Made by a program: the position numbers and the translations under genes. A DNA stretch of 31,388 bases from a virus. The stretch lies in the IMG/VR virus record IMGVR_UViG_3300042935_000229, positions 1 through 31,388 of that record. One strand, written 5' to 3'. The notes below the pieces were generated by a model. That model ran no database searches, was not told the DNA's origin, and worked only from the letters and a program-made list of their open reading frames with translations. The stretch's first letter is position 1. Every line of letters begins with the position of its first letter. Below, one piece after another: positions 2,355 through 16,619 of the stretch.

Positions 2355-3114
2355 TCCAGTCACCGGTACTATTGCAGCCGTTTCGCTTGGTAGCGGCTAT
2401 ATGCAATCACGCGCTGCAAAAGATGCGGCAAGTATGCAAGCAGCTGCTGCTAATCGCGCAATGGACCAAGAACGGGCCATGTATGAACAATCCAGAGAAG
2501 ATTTAGGACCATACAGAGAAGTTGGTTACACCGCCCTTAGAGACATTGAGCGCATGAAGCCGTTTTTAACTTCTCAATTTGGACCTGAACAATTTGGGCA
2601 ATACTTAGACCCCAGCATGGCATTTCGGCAGCGTTTAGGAACTCAAGCAACCGAGCGTTTAGCCAATGTGGGTGGCGGGGCAATCAGCGGTAATACCATG
2701 CGCGCTTTGACTGATTATGGTCAAAACCTAGCATCTACTGAATACGGTAATGCGTTTAATCGTTTTCAGACTGAGCGAGGCAATATTTATAACACCCTAG
2801 CCAATATTGCTGGAATGGGTCAACAGTCTGTTAACACAGGAGTTCAAGCTGGCCAAAACTTTGCAGCTGGACAAACAGGATTAATAACTGGCCAAGCGGC
2901 AGCTAATGCAGCCGGAACGGTTGGATCAGCAAATGCGCTTGCAGGAGGATTTGGCGGTGCTACTAATGCCTACTTGTTAAATCAGTTTATGAGACCACAA
3001 GGCACTCCATCCGCAGTAACGCCATCATCTACTTTGTCTGGATATGGAAATATTCCACCGATGTACACGCCAGGTACTGGATTGCCAACAACATACGGCC
3101 CATCCCCTGCTTAA
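2347..3114 (+). CDS. Phage DNA-ejection / internal virion protein candidate, 255 aa
   Basis: Likely the counterpart of P22 gp7, one of the proteins ejected ahead of DNA. The N-terminus has a Gly/Ala-rich amphipathic segment (TGTIAAVSLGSGYMQSRAAK), then a helical region (MQAAAANRAMDQERAMYEQ) and a YREVGYTALRDIERM motif typical of this family. A long Ala/Gly/Gln/Asn-rich C-terminal half follows, ending in a Pro/Thr-rich tail. I choose ATG at 2347, not the in-frame TTG at 2341, because AAGGAG (2334-2339) lies 7 nt before the ATG. It overlaps the upstream gene by 8 nt. The following two genes fit the gp20/gp16 positions. Confidence 0.62.
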   Translation: MPDPVTGTIAAVSLGSGYMQSRAAKDAASMQAAAANRAMDQERAMYEQSREDLGPYREVGYTALRDIERMKPFLTSQFGPEQFGQYLDPSMAFRQRLGTQATERLANVGGGAISGNTMRALTDYGQNLASTEYGNAFNRFQTERGNIYNTLANIAGMGQQSVNTGVQAGQNFAAGQTGLITGQAAANAAGTVGSANALAGGFGGATNAYLLNQFMRPQGTPSAVTPSSTLSGYGNIPPMYTPGTGLPTTYGPSPA

Positions 3115-3135
3115 TTAGGAAAGAAAACACTAATC

Positions 3136-4488
3136 ATGGCAATTAATATAAAACCAGACATCTCGCTAAGCGGAAAACCACCGACAATGATGACATTGCC
3201 GGAAATGGTCAATATGGCTCGTGGTGCGCAAGCATACCAACGTGAGCGGGAAATATTCCCTGAGTTAGTGCAACAGGCCCGTACTCAAACGCAGCAATCT
3301 CAATTTTCTTTGGATAAAGACCAAACTGCGGGAATTATGTCTTTGGTTGGTGGTTACAGAAATGACCCAAGAATTAATAGCGGAAATGCCGACCAAGCCA
3401 TAGAGGCTATGTCAGAAATCCGCTCAAAAGCCGTGGCTATTGGAATTCCAGAAAAACGAGTAGATGATTTAATGCGCATGGGCAACGCAATTGCGGTACG
3501 CAATCCTGATAAATTACCTCAATATTTTAATAATGTTATTCAGTCACAAATTGGTCCTACTGGCCAACAAGGATTACAAACACCTCAATTAACATCCGTT
3601 GGTGGTGCGCCAGCTTTCTTGCGTACTGGTCCTGCCACAATAACGCCAGCAAACATCGTACAGCCTGAAGTAGCGCCAGCAACAGCACCGGCTGCGGTTG
3701 TACCGGCAGCAGCGCCACAAGTTGGAACTACGCCCAAAGGCGTTACAAGCGCTGACATGGTTGCAAGCAGAAATGACCCTGGCTTTGCTTTGCCATACCC
3801 AGTACGCAGAGCAGGCGATATTCGACCATTTGCTCCTGGCGAAGAATCAGCAACTGTAGAGGGTCAGGCCTATATTAAAAACCTATCAGCCGTTGGATCA
3901 ACTGCGCCAACAGGTCTTGATCGCGTTGATAGAGTGTTGCAAACCATTAGCAAAATTGAATCGAGTAGGGATTTCAAAGCTGGTAAGCCTGGTGAGTTGG
4001 AAGCTAAATTAAGAGCAGCCATTGGCGATGCAGATTACAAATTATTATCTAAAGAGATTGCTGACCTTGTTATTGCAACCAATCAAGCCATTGGTGGCAA
4101 GACCGATGCAACAACCGCTTTGGTATCTCAAGCAACAGGTAACGAGGTATACCCGCCTGAAATATTAAAAAATATAGCAACCAAATTGCGTGGAGAGGCT
4201 TACGGCGCAATGTTGGAGGCAAAAGGCGCAAACAAGTTTTTACAACTTGGATTAAATGAAGCTAACCTCCCAAGGGGTTATAAAGCCGCGTGGGACGACA
4301 ATAAAGATGTTAGGGTATATGAAGCAATGGCAATATTTGCGTCAGACAGACTAACGCCTCAAGAAAAAATAACTGCTTACAATAAGATTAAACCGACCAA
4401 TTTAGAGGCATTAAATGAGTTTGAGCGCAAGGCCCGCAACATTGAAAGTCTTGCTAATACCGGTACTTTGCCAAGGCAAAAACGATGA
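3136..4488 (+). CDS. Putative internal virion / ejection protein, 450 aa
   Basis: No specific family recognised. The N-terminal half is helical and Gln-rich, residues about 175-205 form an Ala/Pro/Val-rich linker, and the C-terminal half is helical and charged (KLRAAIGDADYKLLSKEIADL and onwards). Size and position between a gp7-like gene and a 751-residue Ala-rich gene match the second P22 ejection protein slot (gp20). An AGGAAAG site lies upstream of the ATG. The stop overlaps the next ATG (ATGA at 4485-4488), implying translational coupling. The function is inferred from context. Confidence 0.55.
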   Translation: MAINIKPDISLSGKPPTMMTLPEMVNMARGAQAYQREREIFPELVQQARTQTQQSQFSLDKDQTAGIMSLVGGYRNDPRINSGNADQAIEAMSEIRSKAVAIGIPEKRVDDLMRMGNAIAVRNPDKLPQYFNNVIQSQIGPTGQQGLQTPQLTSVGGAPAFLRTGPATITPANIVQPEVAPATAPAAVVPAAAPQVGTTPKGVTSADMVASRNDPGFALPYPVRRAGDIRPFAPGEESATVEGQAYIKNLSAVGSTAPTGLDRVDRVLQTISKIESSRDFKAGKPGELEAKLRAAIGDADYKLLSKEIADLVIATNQAIGGKTDATTALVSQATGNEVYPPEILKNIATKLRGEAYGAMLEAKGANKFLQLGLNEANLPRGYKAAWDDNKDVRVYEAMAIFASDRLTPQEKITAYNKIKPTNLEALNEFERKARNIESLANTGTLPRQKR

Positions 4489-10782: not shown

Positions 10783-11430
10783 TTAAAAACTCCCTTTATC
10801 AAAATAATTCGATTCGTCATTAAAAAACTCAAATAATGCATCGCACTCGGCCAAAAACTTTTCGGCAGCTGCCTCAACCTCTGCCAACTCCTCTGGGGTC
10901 GGGACATATTTCTTGATGAATAAGTCTTTGCCCTCGCCCATGCGCGGGTCGTAAGATACAAACCAAACATCCTTACCAGTACAAGCTGATTGCAAAAGCA
11001 TCTGTGGTTTGTATTCCGGTGGGATAGCTTGGTTGGCCACATATTTCATGTGTGTCTTAGTCTTGGGGCATTTGACTTCTATGAGCGATCCATCGGACAC
11101 GAAACCGTCAGGGCTCACTCCGCAATGGTCAATGTTTGGGTGGTCAATAAAGCCGACATCCTTAACCATTAAACCGGTGAGGTTTTCAAAGGCCTCCTTA
11201 GCTGCTGCCTCCTGCTCCACGCCCCATTGCATATCCGAGGTCATATATTTGTCGGCAAAGGTGTTGGTAATGCGCTCGGCCACCACCTCGTAACGCAGGT
11301 TTTCTCGCTCACTAGACTCTTTGCCAGACTTTAGGAAGTTCATGGCAGCAGCCATTCTGGAACCGGTCAACTTACCGAGTCGGTCGTTCCACCAGGTCCC
11401 GTCTTGTTGGAATGGATTTGGTTCACGCAT
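10783..11430 (-). CDS. YqaJ-like viral exonuclease (PD-(D/E)XK), 215 aa
   Basis: A lambda-exonuclease/YqaJ-type nuclease that would resect DNA ends for the annealing protein. Visible family features are LTGSRMAAAM (residues 21-30), QWGVEQEAAAKEAFE (68-82), Asp108 in GVSPDGF and the EVK core (Glu118, Lys120) in LIEVKCPKTKTH, together the metal-binding PD-(D/E)XK signature. The C-terminal helix is acidic. The start overlaps the ERF gene end by 8 nt, and GGAG is seen upstream within that gene. Length fits the family. Confidence 0.9.
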   Translation of the reverse strand: MREPNPFQQDGTWWNDRLGKLTGSRMAAAMNFLKSGKESSERENLRYEVVAERITNTFADKYMTSDMQWGVEQEAAAKEAFENLTGLMVKDVGFIDHPNIDHCGVSPDGFVSDGSLIEVKCPKTKTHMKYVANQAIPPEYKPQMLLQSACTGKDVWFVSYDPRMGEGKDLFIKKYVPTPEELAEVEAAAEKFLAECDALFEFFNDESNYFDKGSF

Positions 11431-11971
11431 TTTGATCTCCTTTTAATTTGGTGTGATGTTTGGCTGCAAAGTCCCGCACCATTTCCCGCTCGTCTGCTGC
11501 TAATGTTTTCCATGTCGCAGTCAGCTGGTCGGTTGATGTGGCTGCCGTAATCAGGGCCTCAATCTCTGCCTTGGTGCGGGTTGATTTAGGTTTTACTGGG
11601 CGCGATGCTTGATTGCCGTCATCGTCAACTGGAGCGATGCCACAGGCTGCTTGCAAACTGAATCTCCGAGCATAGGTCATGGCACTACCATACCCCTGAG
11701 CATCCTGTTTGGTGGCTGGCACATGGAGTTTGCCACCCGAAATCATTTCACCAGACTCATGGATAAAAATGGTCTCGATGATGATTCCATCTGCACATTC
11801 ATGAGAATGTTGGACCAAGGCGATACCGTTGTCGTTTAGGGCATCAATCACGGCCTCAACGCAAGCTGCCAAGTCGGCATACCTAGATTTAAAATGTGGA
11901 TTGGTGGACGATTTGAGCGCAGGCCCAAAGGCTTTTTGCGCTTTGACTAATGCGGTTGCTATTTTTTGCAT
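11423..11971 (-). CDS. erf: ERF-family single-strand annealing protein, 182 aa
   Basis: Recombinase that anneals complementary single strands, as P22 Erf does. The family core is visible: NPHFKSRYADLAACVEAV near residues 23-40, then GKLHVPATKQDAQGYGSAMTY, YARRFSLQAACGIAPVDDDGNQ. A basic, Thr/Lys-rich linker follows, then a small C-terminal helical domain (TSTDQLTATWKTLAADERE), probably for protein contact. A CGGAGAGAAT element precedes the ATG; near-identical elements precede other minus-strand genes here. It is followed by the exonuclease (8-nt overlap). Confidence 0.92.
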   Translation of the reverse strand: MQKIATALVKAQKAFGPALKSSTNPHFKSRYADLAACVEAVIDALNDNGIALVQHSHECADGIIIETIFIHESGEMISGGKLHVPATKQDAQGYGSAMTYARRFSLQAACGIAPVDDDGNQASRPVKPKSTRTKAEIEALITAATSTDQLTATWKTLAADEREMVRDFAAKHHTKLKGDQNA

Positions 11972-11981
11972 ATTCTCTCCG

Positions 11982-12110
11982 TTAAATAAATGCTAAAAGT
12001 AAAATAAATACAACTAAACCTACGGCAGCAAAGGCCTCCATCCAAGGAGATTCTTTTTTAGTAAACACATTGCGCTGCCATTTATTGGCCTCAAAGTTAG
12101 TTTTTCTCAT
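11982..12110 (-). CDS. Small single-membrane-helix protein, 42 aa
   Basis: An ORF of 42 residues: a basic N-terminus (MRKTNFEANKWQRNVF) and one hydrophobic helix at residues 24-41 (MEAFAAVGLVVFILLLAF). Its ATG overlaps the stop of the HTH gene (ATGA at 12107-12110). A longer in-frame start exists upstream but would run into that gene, so the coupled start is preferred. Function unknown; it sits in the minus-strand early operon before the recombination genes. Confidence 0.6.
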   Translation of the reverse strand: MRKTNFEANKWQRNVFTKKESPWMEAFAAVGLVVFILLLAFI

Positions 12111-12331
12111 GCTGACACCCGACTTTTGCGTGGTACTGAGATCAAGCGGTAGACTGCGTAACGCACACCAGACGGCTCTTTGACCATATCGGTAACAATG
12201 TCCCAACCCTCTGCTTTAAGGTCATAAATGATGTCAGCTAGGCGTGTGGCGTGGTAGCGCTCGATTGCCTCCCAGCTGGTTATTTTTTTCTTGCTGATTA
12301 AATGTTTTGCTACTAGGTTAATTTTGGTCAT
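12107..12331 (-). CDS. Helix-turn-helix protein, 74 aa
   Basis: Resembles the small phage HTH_39-type domain: an N-terminal helix ending in ISKKKITSWEAIERYHATRLADIIYDL, then a GWDIVTDMVKEPSGVRYAVYRL wing-like hairpin. Such proteins bind DNA, but whether this one is an activator or a repressor cannot be told. The start at 12331 is preferred over upstream in-frame codons because GGAGGAAGT precedes the ATG, which overlaps the upstream stop (ATGA). The downstream membrane microgene also begins in an ATGA overlap. It is a candidate regulator acting at the operator-like sites described here. Confidence 0.72.
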   Translation of the reverse strand: MTKINLVAKHLISKKKITSWEAIERYHATRLADIIYDLKAEGWDIVTDMVKEPSGVRYAVYRLISVPRKSRVSA

Positions 12332-12585: not shown

Positions 12586-12618
12586 TTCTTCTCTCCGATT
12601 AATATGGTTGTAATTTAA

Positions 12619-12834
12619 TTAAGCAATTTCTGCGGCATCTTTAATATTTGCAATTAAAGAACGCAATAATTGTTTTTCAATAATTTGGTTAGATTTAAAC
12701 TGTTCAGCTTTTTCGTCACCAACAATTTTGAAATATTGATAATCGTTGTTATTTTTTTCTTCTAATTGTTTTCTCAACAGTTCCAATACCATTTGGGCTT
12801 GGCGTTGTGACATTTGTACGCTTGCTTGTTTCAT
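12619..12834 (-). CDS. Small helical early protein, 71 aa
   Basis: First gene of the leftward operon. The start at 12834 is chosen because CGGAGAGAAAA precedes it; in-frame codons upstream run through the predicted promoter. The protein is mostly helix (MSQRQAQMVLELLRKQLEEK, then a helix ending KDAAEIA) with Asn/Asp/Tyr between helices. No family is recognised. It lies directly downstream of the predicted promoter and operator. Confidence 0.65.
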   Translation of the reverse strand: MKQASVQMSQRQAQMVLELLRKQLEEKNNNDYQYFKIVGDEKAEQFKSNQIIEKQLLRSLIANIKDAAEIA

Positions 12835-12877
12835 TTTTCTCTCCGATTTTGTTGCCCGATCAAATGACCGTAAATGA

Positions 12878-12906
12878 ATAGTAAACTGTTTATTTACTGT
12901 TTGCAA
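12878..12906 (-). promoter_or_regulatory. Predicted sigma70-like promoter for the leftward early operon
   Basis: On the minus strand: -35 TTGCAA (12901-12906), a 17-nt spacer, and -10 TACTAT (12878-12883). Each box matches the consensus at four of six positions. It reads toward the genes at 12834 to 10117. An operator-like palindrome lies in the spacer and overlaps the -10 box. Confidence 0.5.
12881..12904. promoter_or_regulatory. Operator-like palindrome pair at the leftward promoter
   Basis: GTAAACTGTTTA (12881-12892) is nearly the same sequence as the GTAAACAGTTTAC palindrome at 21065-21077. A second, degenerate half-matching copy, TTTACTGTTTGC, follows immediately (12893-12904). Both lie between or over the promoter boxes, where a bound protein would block RNA polymerase. 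The binding protein is unknown; the HTH protein (12107-12331) and the winged-helix protein (16380-16619) are candidates. Confidence 0.5.
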
Positions 12907-12970
12907 CAGATTTATGCGTTTTTTTATCAAAATTAGGGAAAATACCTATAAAACTAGGGTAAACCACTAG

Positions 12971-13018
12971 AAAAATAGGCGCTTGCCTACCAAAAATAGG
13001 CGTATGCCTACTTGCCTA
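12971..13018. repeat. Tandem TAGGC-N4-GCCTA dyads (iteron-like)
   Basis: Two direct copies of AAAAATAGGC followed by N4 and GCCTA: TAGGC at 12976-12980 with GCCTA at 12985-12989, then TAGGC at 12997-13001 with GCCTA at 13006-13010. A further GCCTA half-site lies at 13014-13018. The copies are 21 bp apart, about two helical turns, so a dimeric protein would bind both on the same face. The same half-site recurs at 13072, 13320, 13346 and 13379. Compatible with an origin iteron or a regulator cluster; no function is shown. Confidence 0.55.
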
Positions 13019-13336
13019 GCCGTGGTAATATATGGGTGTCAGCGGTGTGGCAACCGTTGGAATCTCTTTATAGGCGTTAAACCCCGAATTTTTCGGTGGT
13101 GCGAAAAATGCTTGGAATCGGTCATTCGCCGTAAAGAGGACTTATTCCAAGGATGCCCCGCCAGGCCGCACCACCCAAGGATTTGGGGTTTTTTATTGCC
13201 TGCTGACCGTACTCCGCACGATAGTAATGGGCCTAAATCGGCAGCGCGGAACAGTAGATACGGTATCGGCTCACCACCAGATTACCGGAGCAGCCTGTCG
13301 ACGAGGGACTGCGGAACTAGCCTAAGACATGGGTGA
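13004..13336 (+). CDS. Possible zinc-ribbon ORF, uncertain
   Basis: Open frame of 110 codons from ATG at 13004. The first 40 residues carry a plausible zinc ribbon: CQRC, 17 residues, then CEKC. The C-terminal 60 residues are Arg/Pro/Ser-rich and look like translated non-coding DNA, and the whole frame lies across the hairpins and dyads of the control region. There is no clear ribosome site. Either a short zinc-ribbon protein or a chance ORF; I lean slightly to chance. Confidence 0.25.
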   Translation: MPTCLAVVIYGCQRCGNRWNLFIGVKPRIFRWCEKCLESVIRRKEDLFQGCPARPHHPRIWGFLLPADRTPHDSNGPKSAARNSRYGIGSPPDYRSSLSTRDCGTSLRHG

Positions 13337-13353
13337 TAGACAACTTAGGCTAG
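13317..13353 (+). other. Perfect 10-bp stem-loop in the control region
   Basis: CTAGCCTAAG (13317-13326) and CTTAGGCTAG (13344-13353) are perfect inverse complements around a 17-nt loop. The loop contains GGGTGATAG (13331-13339), which can pair with CTATCACCC at 13428-13436. No T-run follows, so it is not an intrinsic terminator. It could be a structured RNA element or a protein-binding dyad in DNA. Confidence 0.5.
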
Positions 13354-13479
13354 GATAAATCGTTGCCTTATGGGGCGCATAGGCTGGATTGTTTTACTTA
13401 TCTAAGCTGGTGCTAAAGTGATCATGGCTATCACCCTTGGGTAATCTATGGCAAAAACAAATAGAAACTAAAAACTGCC

Positions 13480-13508
13480 TTGCAAACTATTTATTATTCA
13501 TTTATTCT
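13480..13508 (+). promoter_or_regulatory. Predicted rightward early promoter
   Basis: TTGCAA (13480-13485), a 17-nt spacer, TATTCT (13503-13508). The -35 hexamer equals that of the leftward promoter, and both promoters carry TATTCATTTA close to the -10 region. Transcription would start about 12 nt before the ATG at 13527, leaving just room for the AAGGAG site at 13515-13520. Alternative -10 boxes are possible in this AT-rich tract. Confidence 0.45.
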
Positions 13509-13526
13509 CTGCAAAAGGAGAACAAT

Positions 13527-13799
13527 ATGACCTTAGATGACCTAGAAGAAGTTGCCCTTAAATGCGGAATGGTAAGAACCAAAAAAAATTGGTCGGCCAC
13601 CGAATCACAACTGGAATGCTTTGCAAACAATTTACTTGAGGAATTTAGAGGGATTGCTAGAGACCAACTAGTTCAATCCATTAAACGCGCAGCTGATTAC
13701 GAGCGCGAACAATGCGCCAAGGTCGCTGAGATGTCTTGGTTTGAGGGCATGGAACAAGAGGATATCGCAAAGGCCATCCGAGACAGGGCGGACGAATGA
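13527..13799 (+). CDS. Small early protein, 90 aa, unknown function
   Basis: First gene of the rightward operon. The start is set by AAGGAG 6 nt upstream of ATG 13527; an in-frame TTG at 13437 is rejected because it would pass through the predicted promoter. The product is helical: TLDDLEEVALKCGMVRTKKN, ESQLECFANNLLEEFRG, then KRAADYEREQCAKVAE and a C-terminal acidic helix. Similar short proteins with a YEREQCAKxAE stretch are frequent in phage early regions, but their role is not known to me. It is joined to the next gene by ATGA. Confidence 0.72.
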   Translation: MTLDDLEEVALKCGMVRTKKNWSATESQLECFANNLLEEFRGIARDQLVQSIKRAADYEREQCAKVAEMSWFEGMEQEDIAKAIRDRADE

Positions 13800-13900
13800 T
13801 TGCCTATTCTGCGCAAACCCCATCATTAATGGACTTTTCTTGGTTTATTTTGGTTATTGCTATTTTGGCTGCTTTAGCTATTTGGTTGAGGGATAAATGA
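13796..13900 (+). CDS. Membrane microprotein, 34 aa
   Basis: A 34-codon ORF coupled at both ends by ATGA overlaps: ATG at 13796 inside the upstream stop, and its stop inside the next ATG (13897). The sequence is a short polar N-terminus, then one hydrophobic helix, residues about 13-30 (DFSWFILVIAILAALAIW), ending in LRDK. The tight coupling on both sides argues it is translated. Function unknown. Confidence 0.6.
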   Translation: MIAYSAQTPSLMDFSWFILVIAILAALAIWLRDK

Positions 13901-14277
13901 CAGACTTTGAAGAATTTTGGAAAACCTATCCACGCCGTGTGGCCAAGGGAGATGCGCGCAAGGCGTGGAAGCAGACTGAGGGCATCCGCCCGCCGCTGCA
14001 GGAACTGTTAGACGCTATTCGGCAGCAGATGCGCTCAGACCAATGGCGCAAGAATGATGGCCAGTTCGTATGCTACCCCGCCTCGTGGTTGCGCCAAGAG
14101 CGCTGGTCTGACGAGTTAAAAGTTACCCTGCCTGGCGTGGTTGATGGTAAAGAATGGCATGAAACATGGCCTGGCATCGTGGCTAAAGGCAAAGAGTTGG
14201 GCATTTTGGAAAGCCAGTTTGATCAACCTTATTTATTTAAAGCTGCGGTATTGCGCGGATCGGTTAAGGCCGCATGA
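13897..14277 (+). CDS. Replication-type protein (DnaT/replisome-organiser-like C-terminal domain), 126 aa
   Basis: The N-terminal FEEFWKTYPRRVAKGDARKAW and the FVCYPASWLRQERWSDE block (about residues 54-70) form a domain seen at the C-terminus of phage replication initiators and helicase-loader-like proteins. Here it stands alone, with no separate winged-helix DNA-binding domain in front. Role in replication is inferred from the family and from the position beside the control region. Coupled by ATGA both to the upstream microgene and to the methyltransferase. Confidence 0.7.
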   Translation: MTDFEEFWKTYPRRVAKGDARKAWKQTEGIRPPLQELLDAIRQQMRSDQWRKNDGQFVCYPASWLRQERWSDELKVTLPGVVDGKEWHETWPGIVAKGKELGILESQFDQPYLFKAAVLRGSVKAA

Positions 14278-16379: not shown

Positions 16380-16619
16380 ATGAAAAAGTTAAAACGCCGA
16401 CCACGGCTTGCGCAAGATATTTTGGAATTGTTGGGGCAAAAACCCAACATTACGCAAGCTGAGATTGCAAAAGAACTGTTGGCTAAACCCCATTCTATTA
16501 AAGCGGTATTATGGAAATTAGTGCATCAACAGAATAAAATTGTTGCTACAAAAGGCGCAAAAGCAGATAAAATGACAGGGCCGAAGGTCATTAATATGTA
16601 CTGTTTGAAGGAATTATGA
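16380..16619 (+). CDS. Winged-helix-like small protein, 79 aa
   Basis: A basic protein with a helix-turn-helix pattern: RLAQDILELLGQKPNITQAEIAKELL, then HSIKAVLWKLVHQQNKIVATKG and a C-terminal wing (KVINMYCLKEL). Probably DNA-binding. AACTGTTTATT lies in the leader (16370-16380), an 11-base match to part of the operator-like palindrome at 12881, although one half is not conserved. Autoregulation is possible but not shown. The next gene overlaps its stop (ATGA). Confidence 0.65.
   Translation: MKKLKRRPRLAQDILELLGQKPNITQAEIAKELLAKPHSIKAVLWKLVHQQNKIVATKGAKADKMTGPKVINMYCLKEL

Follow-up and report, generated by a model that had tools for sequence, protein, structure and literature searches.

The window, by which we mean the whole 31,388-base IMG/VR virus record, carries genes for terminase, portal, coat and endolysin, and the phage looks like a P22-type podophage, apparently lytic. 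The lineage is one of widespread, freshwater-type phages, and no nucleotide match to cultured phages was found. Relatives were retrieved with the 126-aa protein described below, the Erf protein and an 18-mer of the first of two RNAs, RNA1. As the earlier note had it, the region of interest lies between divergent operons and beside a replication-type gene. The operon encoding Erf, YqaJ and SSB runs left from it, and it comprises an Erf-like ssDNA annealing protein (11423..11971, minus strand; PF04404, phrog_2324), a 74-aa HTH_39 winged helix protein (12107..12331, minus strand; PF14090, E 7.2e-14) whose gene is present in nearly all relatives with a contig spanning that position, and, as the first leftward gene, a 71-aa protein (12619..12834, minus strand) at a variable position. 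This last protein gave no Pfam or PHROGs match and occurs elsewhere only in L009 and an identical contig, L002. The start of the left operon beside the array (12586-12850) is variable, and in L024, L025 and L027 it is occupied by ~900 bp of other sequence. To the right run a 90-aa protein of unassigned function (13527..13799, plus strand), the first gene on that side, a 126-aa replication-initiation-like protein (13897..14277, plus strand; phrog_9327, primosomal protein, E 2.5e-20, and phrog_270) and a C5 cytosine methylase. In L041 (~2700-3700) the 90-aa gene is separated from the RNA block by ~1 kb with what reads by eye as an HNH endonuclease gene.

Both operons have a probable promoter, judged by consensus match: a leftward one, PL (TTGCAA-17-TACTAT; 12878..12906, minus strand), for the recombination operon, and a rightward one, PR (TTGCAA-17-TATTCT; 13480..13508, plus strand), for the operon of the 90-aa and replication genes. 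The pattern TTGCAAAC-N15-TANNNT occurs just twice in the window, at 12906 (minus) and 13480 (plus), facing outward, where 0.07 occurrences are expected, and the PL and PR regions are conserved in the alignment of relatives.

A 21-bp array over a third promoter

The two TAGGC-N4-GCCTA dyads 21 bp apart to which the earlier note drew attention are present as TAGGCGCTTGCCTA (12976-12989) and TAGGCGTATGCCTA (12997-13010), the sole exact dyads of this form in the window. Together they make up the second half, as units 3 and 4, of an array of four units in a 21-bp register (12934, 12955, 12976, 12997). The first two units had been overlooked: TAGGGAAAATACCTA (12934..12948) and the degenerate dyad TAGGGTAAACCACTAG (12955..12970). 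In longer form the units read TAGGGAAAATACCTATAAAAC, TAGGGTAAACCACTAGAAAAA, TAGGCGCTTGCCTACCAAAAA and TAGGCGTATGCCTACTTGCCT, respectively. Self-identity of the array is 61% at a shift of 21 and 14–38% at every other shift from 5 to 39. Because the dyads recur every 21 bp, two helical turns, dimers bound to them would lie side by side on one face of the DNA.

The half-sites proposed to extend this cluster fared unevenly. Those at 13014-13018 (a GCCTA downstream of unit 4 and ahead of the -10 described below, not retained in L014, L023 and L033), 13320-13324 and 13346-13350 are as reported, those given as 13072 and 13379 lie one base away at 13071-13075 and 13380-13384, and a further one at 13231 had been missed. 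The expected enrichment holds locally, with 10 of the window's 40 TAGGC sites falling within ~415 bp (~0.5 expected at the window's own density), but not window-wide, where the motif is rarer than chance (40 versus 61 in dinucleotide shuffles), so that the cluster is a local one. The sites at 13071, 13320, 13346 and 13380, however, do not belong with the dyads. They are strands of RNA helices, the first an arm of an RNA1 helix, the next two forming a single hairpin of a second RNA (RNA2) and the last lying in another RNA2 helix, and the pairing persists in relatives whose TAGGC letters differ. It was therefore an error to carry the cluster on to 13383, since the downstream sites are part of two structured RNAs. 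The reading of the region as a regulator hub is supported by its anatomy between 12934 and 13010, with a four-unit array, divergent promoters and a third promoter whose -35 lies under unit 4, and does not extend beyond; within these limits the array probably represents a set of protein-binding sites.

This third promoter (13004..13031, plus strand), also recognized by consensus, points rightward to RNA1, with a -35 of ATGCCT (13004-13009) inside array unit 4 and an extended -10, TG-G-TAATAT (TGGTAATAT, 13023-13031). As unit 4 covers the -35, binding of a regulator there would be predicted to repress the promoter. Among 18 sequences of types 1a-1c (see below), 13 have their highest-scoring -10 hexamer ending 6 nt upstream of where conservation of RNA1 begins. 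The mean score is 8.6, compared with 6.7 in shuffles and a maximum of 7.5 among the shuffled means. The distance is 7 nt in L054, and in L004, L006, L017 and L023 the scoring favoured a different register even though TGGTAATAT can be seen in its normal position.

Conservation among relatives is unequal along the array. Almost every close relative retains unit 1, in the form TAGGG-N4/5-CCTA, as do the more distant L051, L054, L055, L057 and L060, and unit 2 is a full dyad, TAGGGTAAACACCTA, in L012, L013, L061 and L033. Units 3 and 4 are replaced by AATAAATGC-type repeats in L004, L006, L011, L017 and L026, all of which retain unit 1 and the -10 of the RNA promoter despite the replacement. In L004 (3010-3096), where the TAGGC units 3 and 4 would be, the alternative arrays consist of CAATAAATGCC repeats with an 11-bp period and then AACCACGGTTG repeats. 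In our view the array is an operator whose core is conserved and whose added parts change quickly. A search among the relatives for a DNA-binding candidate whose presence follows the array type found none, and because no gene tracks the change the identity of the regulator is a guess, for which the HTH_39 protein appears the best candidate and a 79-aa HTH protein at 16380-16619 a possible alternative.

RNA1 and RNA2

Downstream of the third promoter lies a structured RNA of ~157 nt, RNA1 (13038..13194, plus strand), delineated by folding, covariation, a pseudoknot swap test and a covariance model that we refer to as R1. Its fold comprises a 5' hairpin (13039-13046/13053-13060), a long stem (13079-13103/13167-13191), an inner stem (13108-13123/13139-13154) and a pseudoknot helix (13064-13076/13127-13138), and it ends in a U-tract (13189-13194) that forms a terminator-like 3' end. 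RNA1 folds far better than its shuffles (MFE z of -5.8). When 22 sequences are aligned with the model, 97.3% of cells are paired, compared with 36–60% when the partners are slid by 1–3 columns, and two-sided changes are found in 27 of 47 pairs; type 1a by itself, in a plain alignment, gives two-sided changes in 7 of 47 pairs, which is the stricter figure because the model-based alignment was fitted to the structure. The covarying helices are flanked by a promoter on the 5' side and a U-tract terminator on the 3' side, both as consensus sites, and we regard RNA1 as almost certainly a genuine structured RNA. Its length varies from 148 to 166 nt among relatives, not in steps of three, so it is not coding. 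A 117-aa open reading frame at 12983-13336 was ruled out as a gene on the same grounds, the RNA length varying out of frame among relatives.

The pseudoknot helix was spotted by eye and then tested separately. All 25 sequences form it, even though both the length and the letters of the helix are rewritten between close relatives, and each sequence pairs better with its own partner (-15.8 kcal/mol) than with swapped ones (-6.2 kcal/mol; 0 of 10,000 permutations). The inner stem partly competes with this helix, suggesting that the two may act as a switch and not as parts of one fold. No match of at least 11 nt to the variable helix was found elsewhere in the phage genomes tested, giving no antisense target there. 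By eye, the invariant loop GTGGCA (13047-13052) could pair with an invariant TGCC (13153-13157) as a possible second pseudoknot, and type 1d has TGAC/GTCA at the matching places. The RNA1 18-mer gave 12 matches in 257 Gb of genomes, which is about the number expected by chance, and their flanks are unlike RNA1.

RNA1 is followed by RNA2 (type 2A; 13196..13452, plus strand), a structured RNA of ~257 nt whose ends are approximate. Types 2A and 2B align and show two-sided compensatory changes in 18 of 40 consensus pairs. RNA2 has no excess stability (MFE z of -0.09), so that the case for it comes from covariation and conservation, and no promoter or terminator can clearly be assigned to it. Scans of the window with Rfam 15 gave no match to either RNA, and our literature search found no paper on them.

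Exchange of RNA types between relatives

Across dozens of related contigs the positions of RNA1 and RNA2 behave as two slots that keep their place between the recombination and replication operons. Typing by sequence match distinguishes four slot-1 and four slot-2 types, which occur in eleven combinations (1a/2A, 1a/2B, 1a/2C, 1b/2B, 1b/2D, 1c/2A, 1c/2D, 1d/2A, 1d/2B, 1d/2C and 1d/2D), although the counts per combination are not independent because several loci are the same contig retrieved twice. The R1 model detects types 1b and 1c at E values of 1e-12 to 1e-17, whereas its matches to type 1d are marginal (0.001–0.02), so that 1d may be a positional analogue rather than a homologue. The pseudoknot pairing recurs in types 1b and 1c, and also in 1d (17 of 5,000 permutations, with few sequences). 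R1 detected no RNA1 in the more distant Erf phages.

Type 2C is the Betaproteobacteria-1 RNA of Rfam (RF02932) and type 2D a fourth sequence, 95% conserved. RF02932 occupies slot 2 in L014 and L051, where the window has RNA2, but its covariance model has no match at E≤1 in window positions 12800-13600, and types 2A and 2B have another sequence and structure. No slot-1 RNA was found beside the cellular Betaproteobacteria-1 RNAs. The RF02932 copies (L014:1286-1406, L051:3083-3204, L210, L216) seemingly continue past the 120-nt model in phage and cellular copies alike, the downstream blocks having GGCTG and GGCTCCGA in common when read by eye.

Another known family, int-alpA RNA (RF02996), resembles RNA1 and RNA2 in being a structured phage RNA near the Erf operon and directly upstream of the next rightward gene, in distant phages. 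It differs in being a 71-nt three-way junction with no covariance-model match in the window, and by this measure is not homologous. Matches to it were found in 6 of the 8 more distant Erf phages tested, two of them above the gathering score (L118:3015-3081 and L095:1636-1709, both on the minus strand) and those in L136, L129, L134 and L119 just below. GOLLD and ROOL are large, ornate RNAs that are conserved, structured and often phage-borne, with a role that is unknown (PMC12286853); they share these traits with RNA1 and RNA2 but are much larger, whereas RNA1 is short, terminated, pseudoknotted and has no Rfam match.

A possible early control region

Taken as a whole, we give an even chance to the reading of this locus as an early control region made up of an operator array, a promoter and two trans-acting RNAs. 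A dimeric phage regulator, for which the HTH_39 protein is the candidate, would bind up to four dyads. The rightward promoter would yield a discrete RNA1 of ~157 nt that starts at the 5' hairpin, adopts the pseudoknotted fold and stops at its own terminator, and read-through would produce RNA2. Most likely both would act in trans in early infection, by binding a factor of the host or the phage. We favour trans action over a pure leader because of the discrete ends, the promoter of its own, the interchangeable types and the drifting helix, and the replaceable types and rewritten helix fit a function with quickly changing partners or recognition. What the sequence itself shows is the array, the two RNAs, the pseudoknot, a terminator-like end and the swapping of types; transcription, repression, the identity of the regulator, action in trans and its target are inferences. 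A less likely extension is that the two slots form a cassette in which the hypervariable slot-1 helix evolves as a recognition or escape element, with a host nuclease or defence system as one conceivable target or exclusion between phages as another possible role, which would make the cassette an RNA equivalent of loci for anti-defence or immunity.

A replication origin was one of the two readings suggested by the earlier note, and in such a scheme the 21-bp units would be iterons for the 126-aa initiator and the two RNAs origin transcripts or copy-control RNAs. Four direct repeats at a fixed spacing of 21 bp are what iterons would look like, the array adjoins an AT-rich stretch (12907-12933) near the replication-initiation-like gene, relatives have other short tandem repeats there (CAATAAATGCC, with an 11-bp period), and the RNA slots stay between the two operons. 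Yet GC skew, which is not diagnostic, has no turning point at the region, and in the five relatives with replaced units 3 and 4 the 126-aa protein is 92–98% identical, so that units 3 and 4, unlike unit 1, are not conserved with the initiator; the three promoter-like sites fit transcription control. The iteron proposal is thus without direct support, and we consider an origin unlikely. We are similarly doubtful of an attenuation or antitermination leader, in which the terminator and competing helices of RNA1, and then RNA2, would control read-through into the right operon. The same-strand order of promoter, RNA1, terminator, RNA2 and operon, the competition between inner stem and pseudoknot, and the int-alpA RNA of distant Erf phages, which lies upstream of an apparently replication-related gene, would all suit it, but downstream of RNA2 there is a promoter-like site belonging to the right operon itself, and in L041 and L044 ~1 kb of other sequence separates RNA1 from the 90-aa gene.

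Lambdoid operator arrays are tandem dyads about two helical turns apart over a promoter between divergent operons, and the array here is arranged likewise, but the product it would control is a noncoding RNA. Site sequences that differ among close relatives would also be in keeping with immunity operators of the CI/Cro type in a temperate phage. However, no CI/Cro-like protein, and hence no linked repressor, was found among the proteins of the flanking operons that were scanned, and no gene follows the site type. In sampled Burkholderiales genomes the RNA1 model gave no match in 300 (best ten candidates per genome scored) and the 126-aa protein none in 399 at E≤1e-20, which is a weak sampling. 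We regard immunity operators as very improbable.

The locus adds two previously undescribed structured RNA families absent from Rfam 15. In these phages, RNAs of different types replace one another in a slot at a fixed place in the genome, and the Betaproteobacteria-1 RNA, already known though unexplained, is among them. That the pseudoknot helix is rewritten yet always paired points, in a way that can be tested, to fast change constrained by the need to pair, and the helix offers a direct route to asking what the structured RNAs of phages do.
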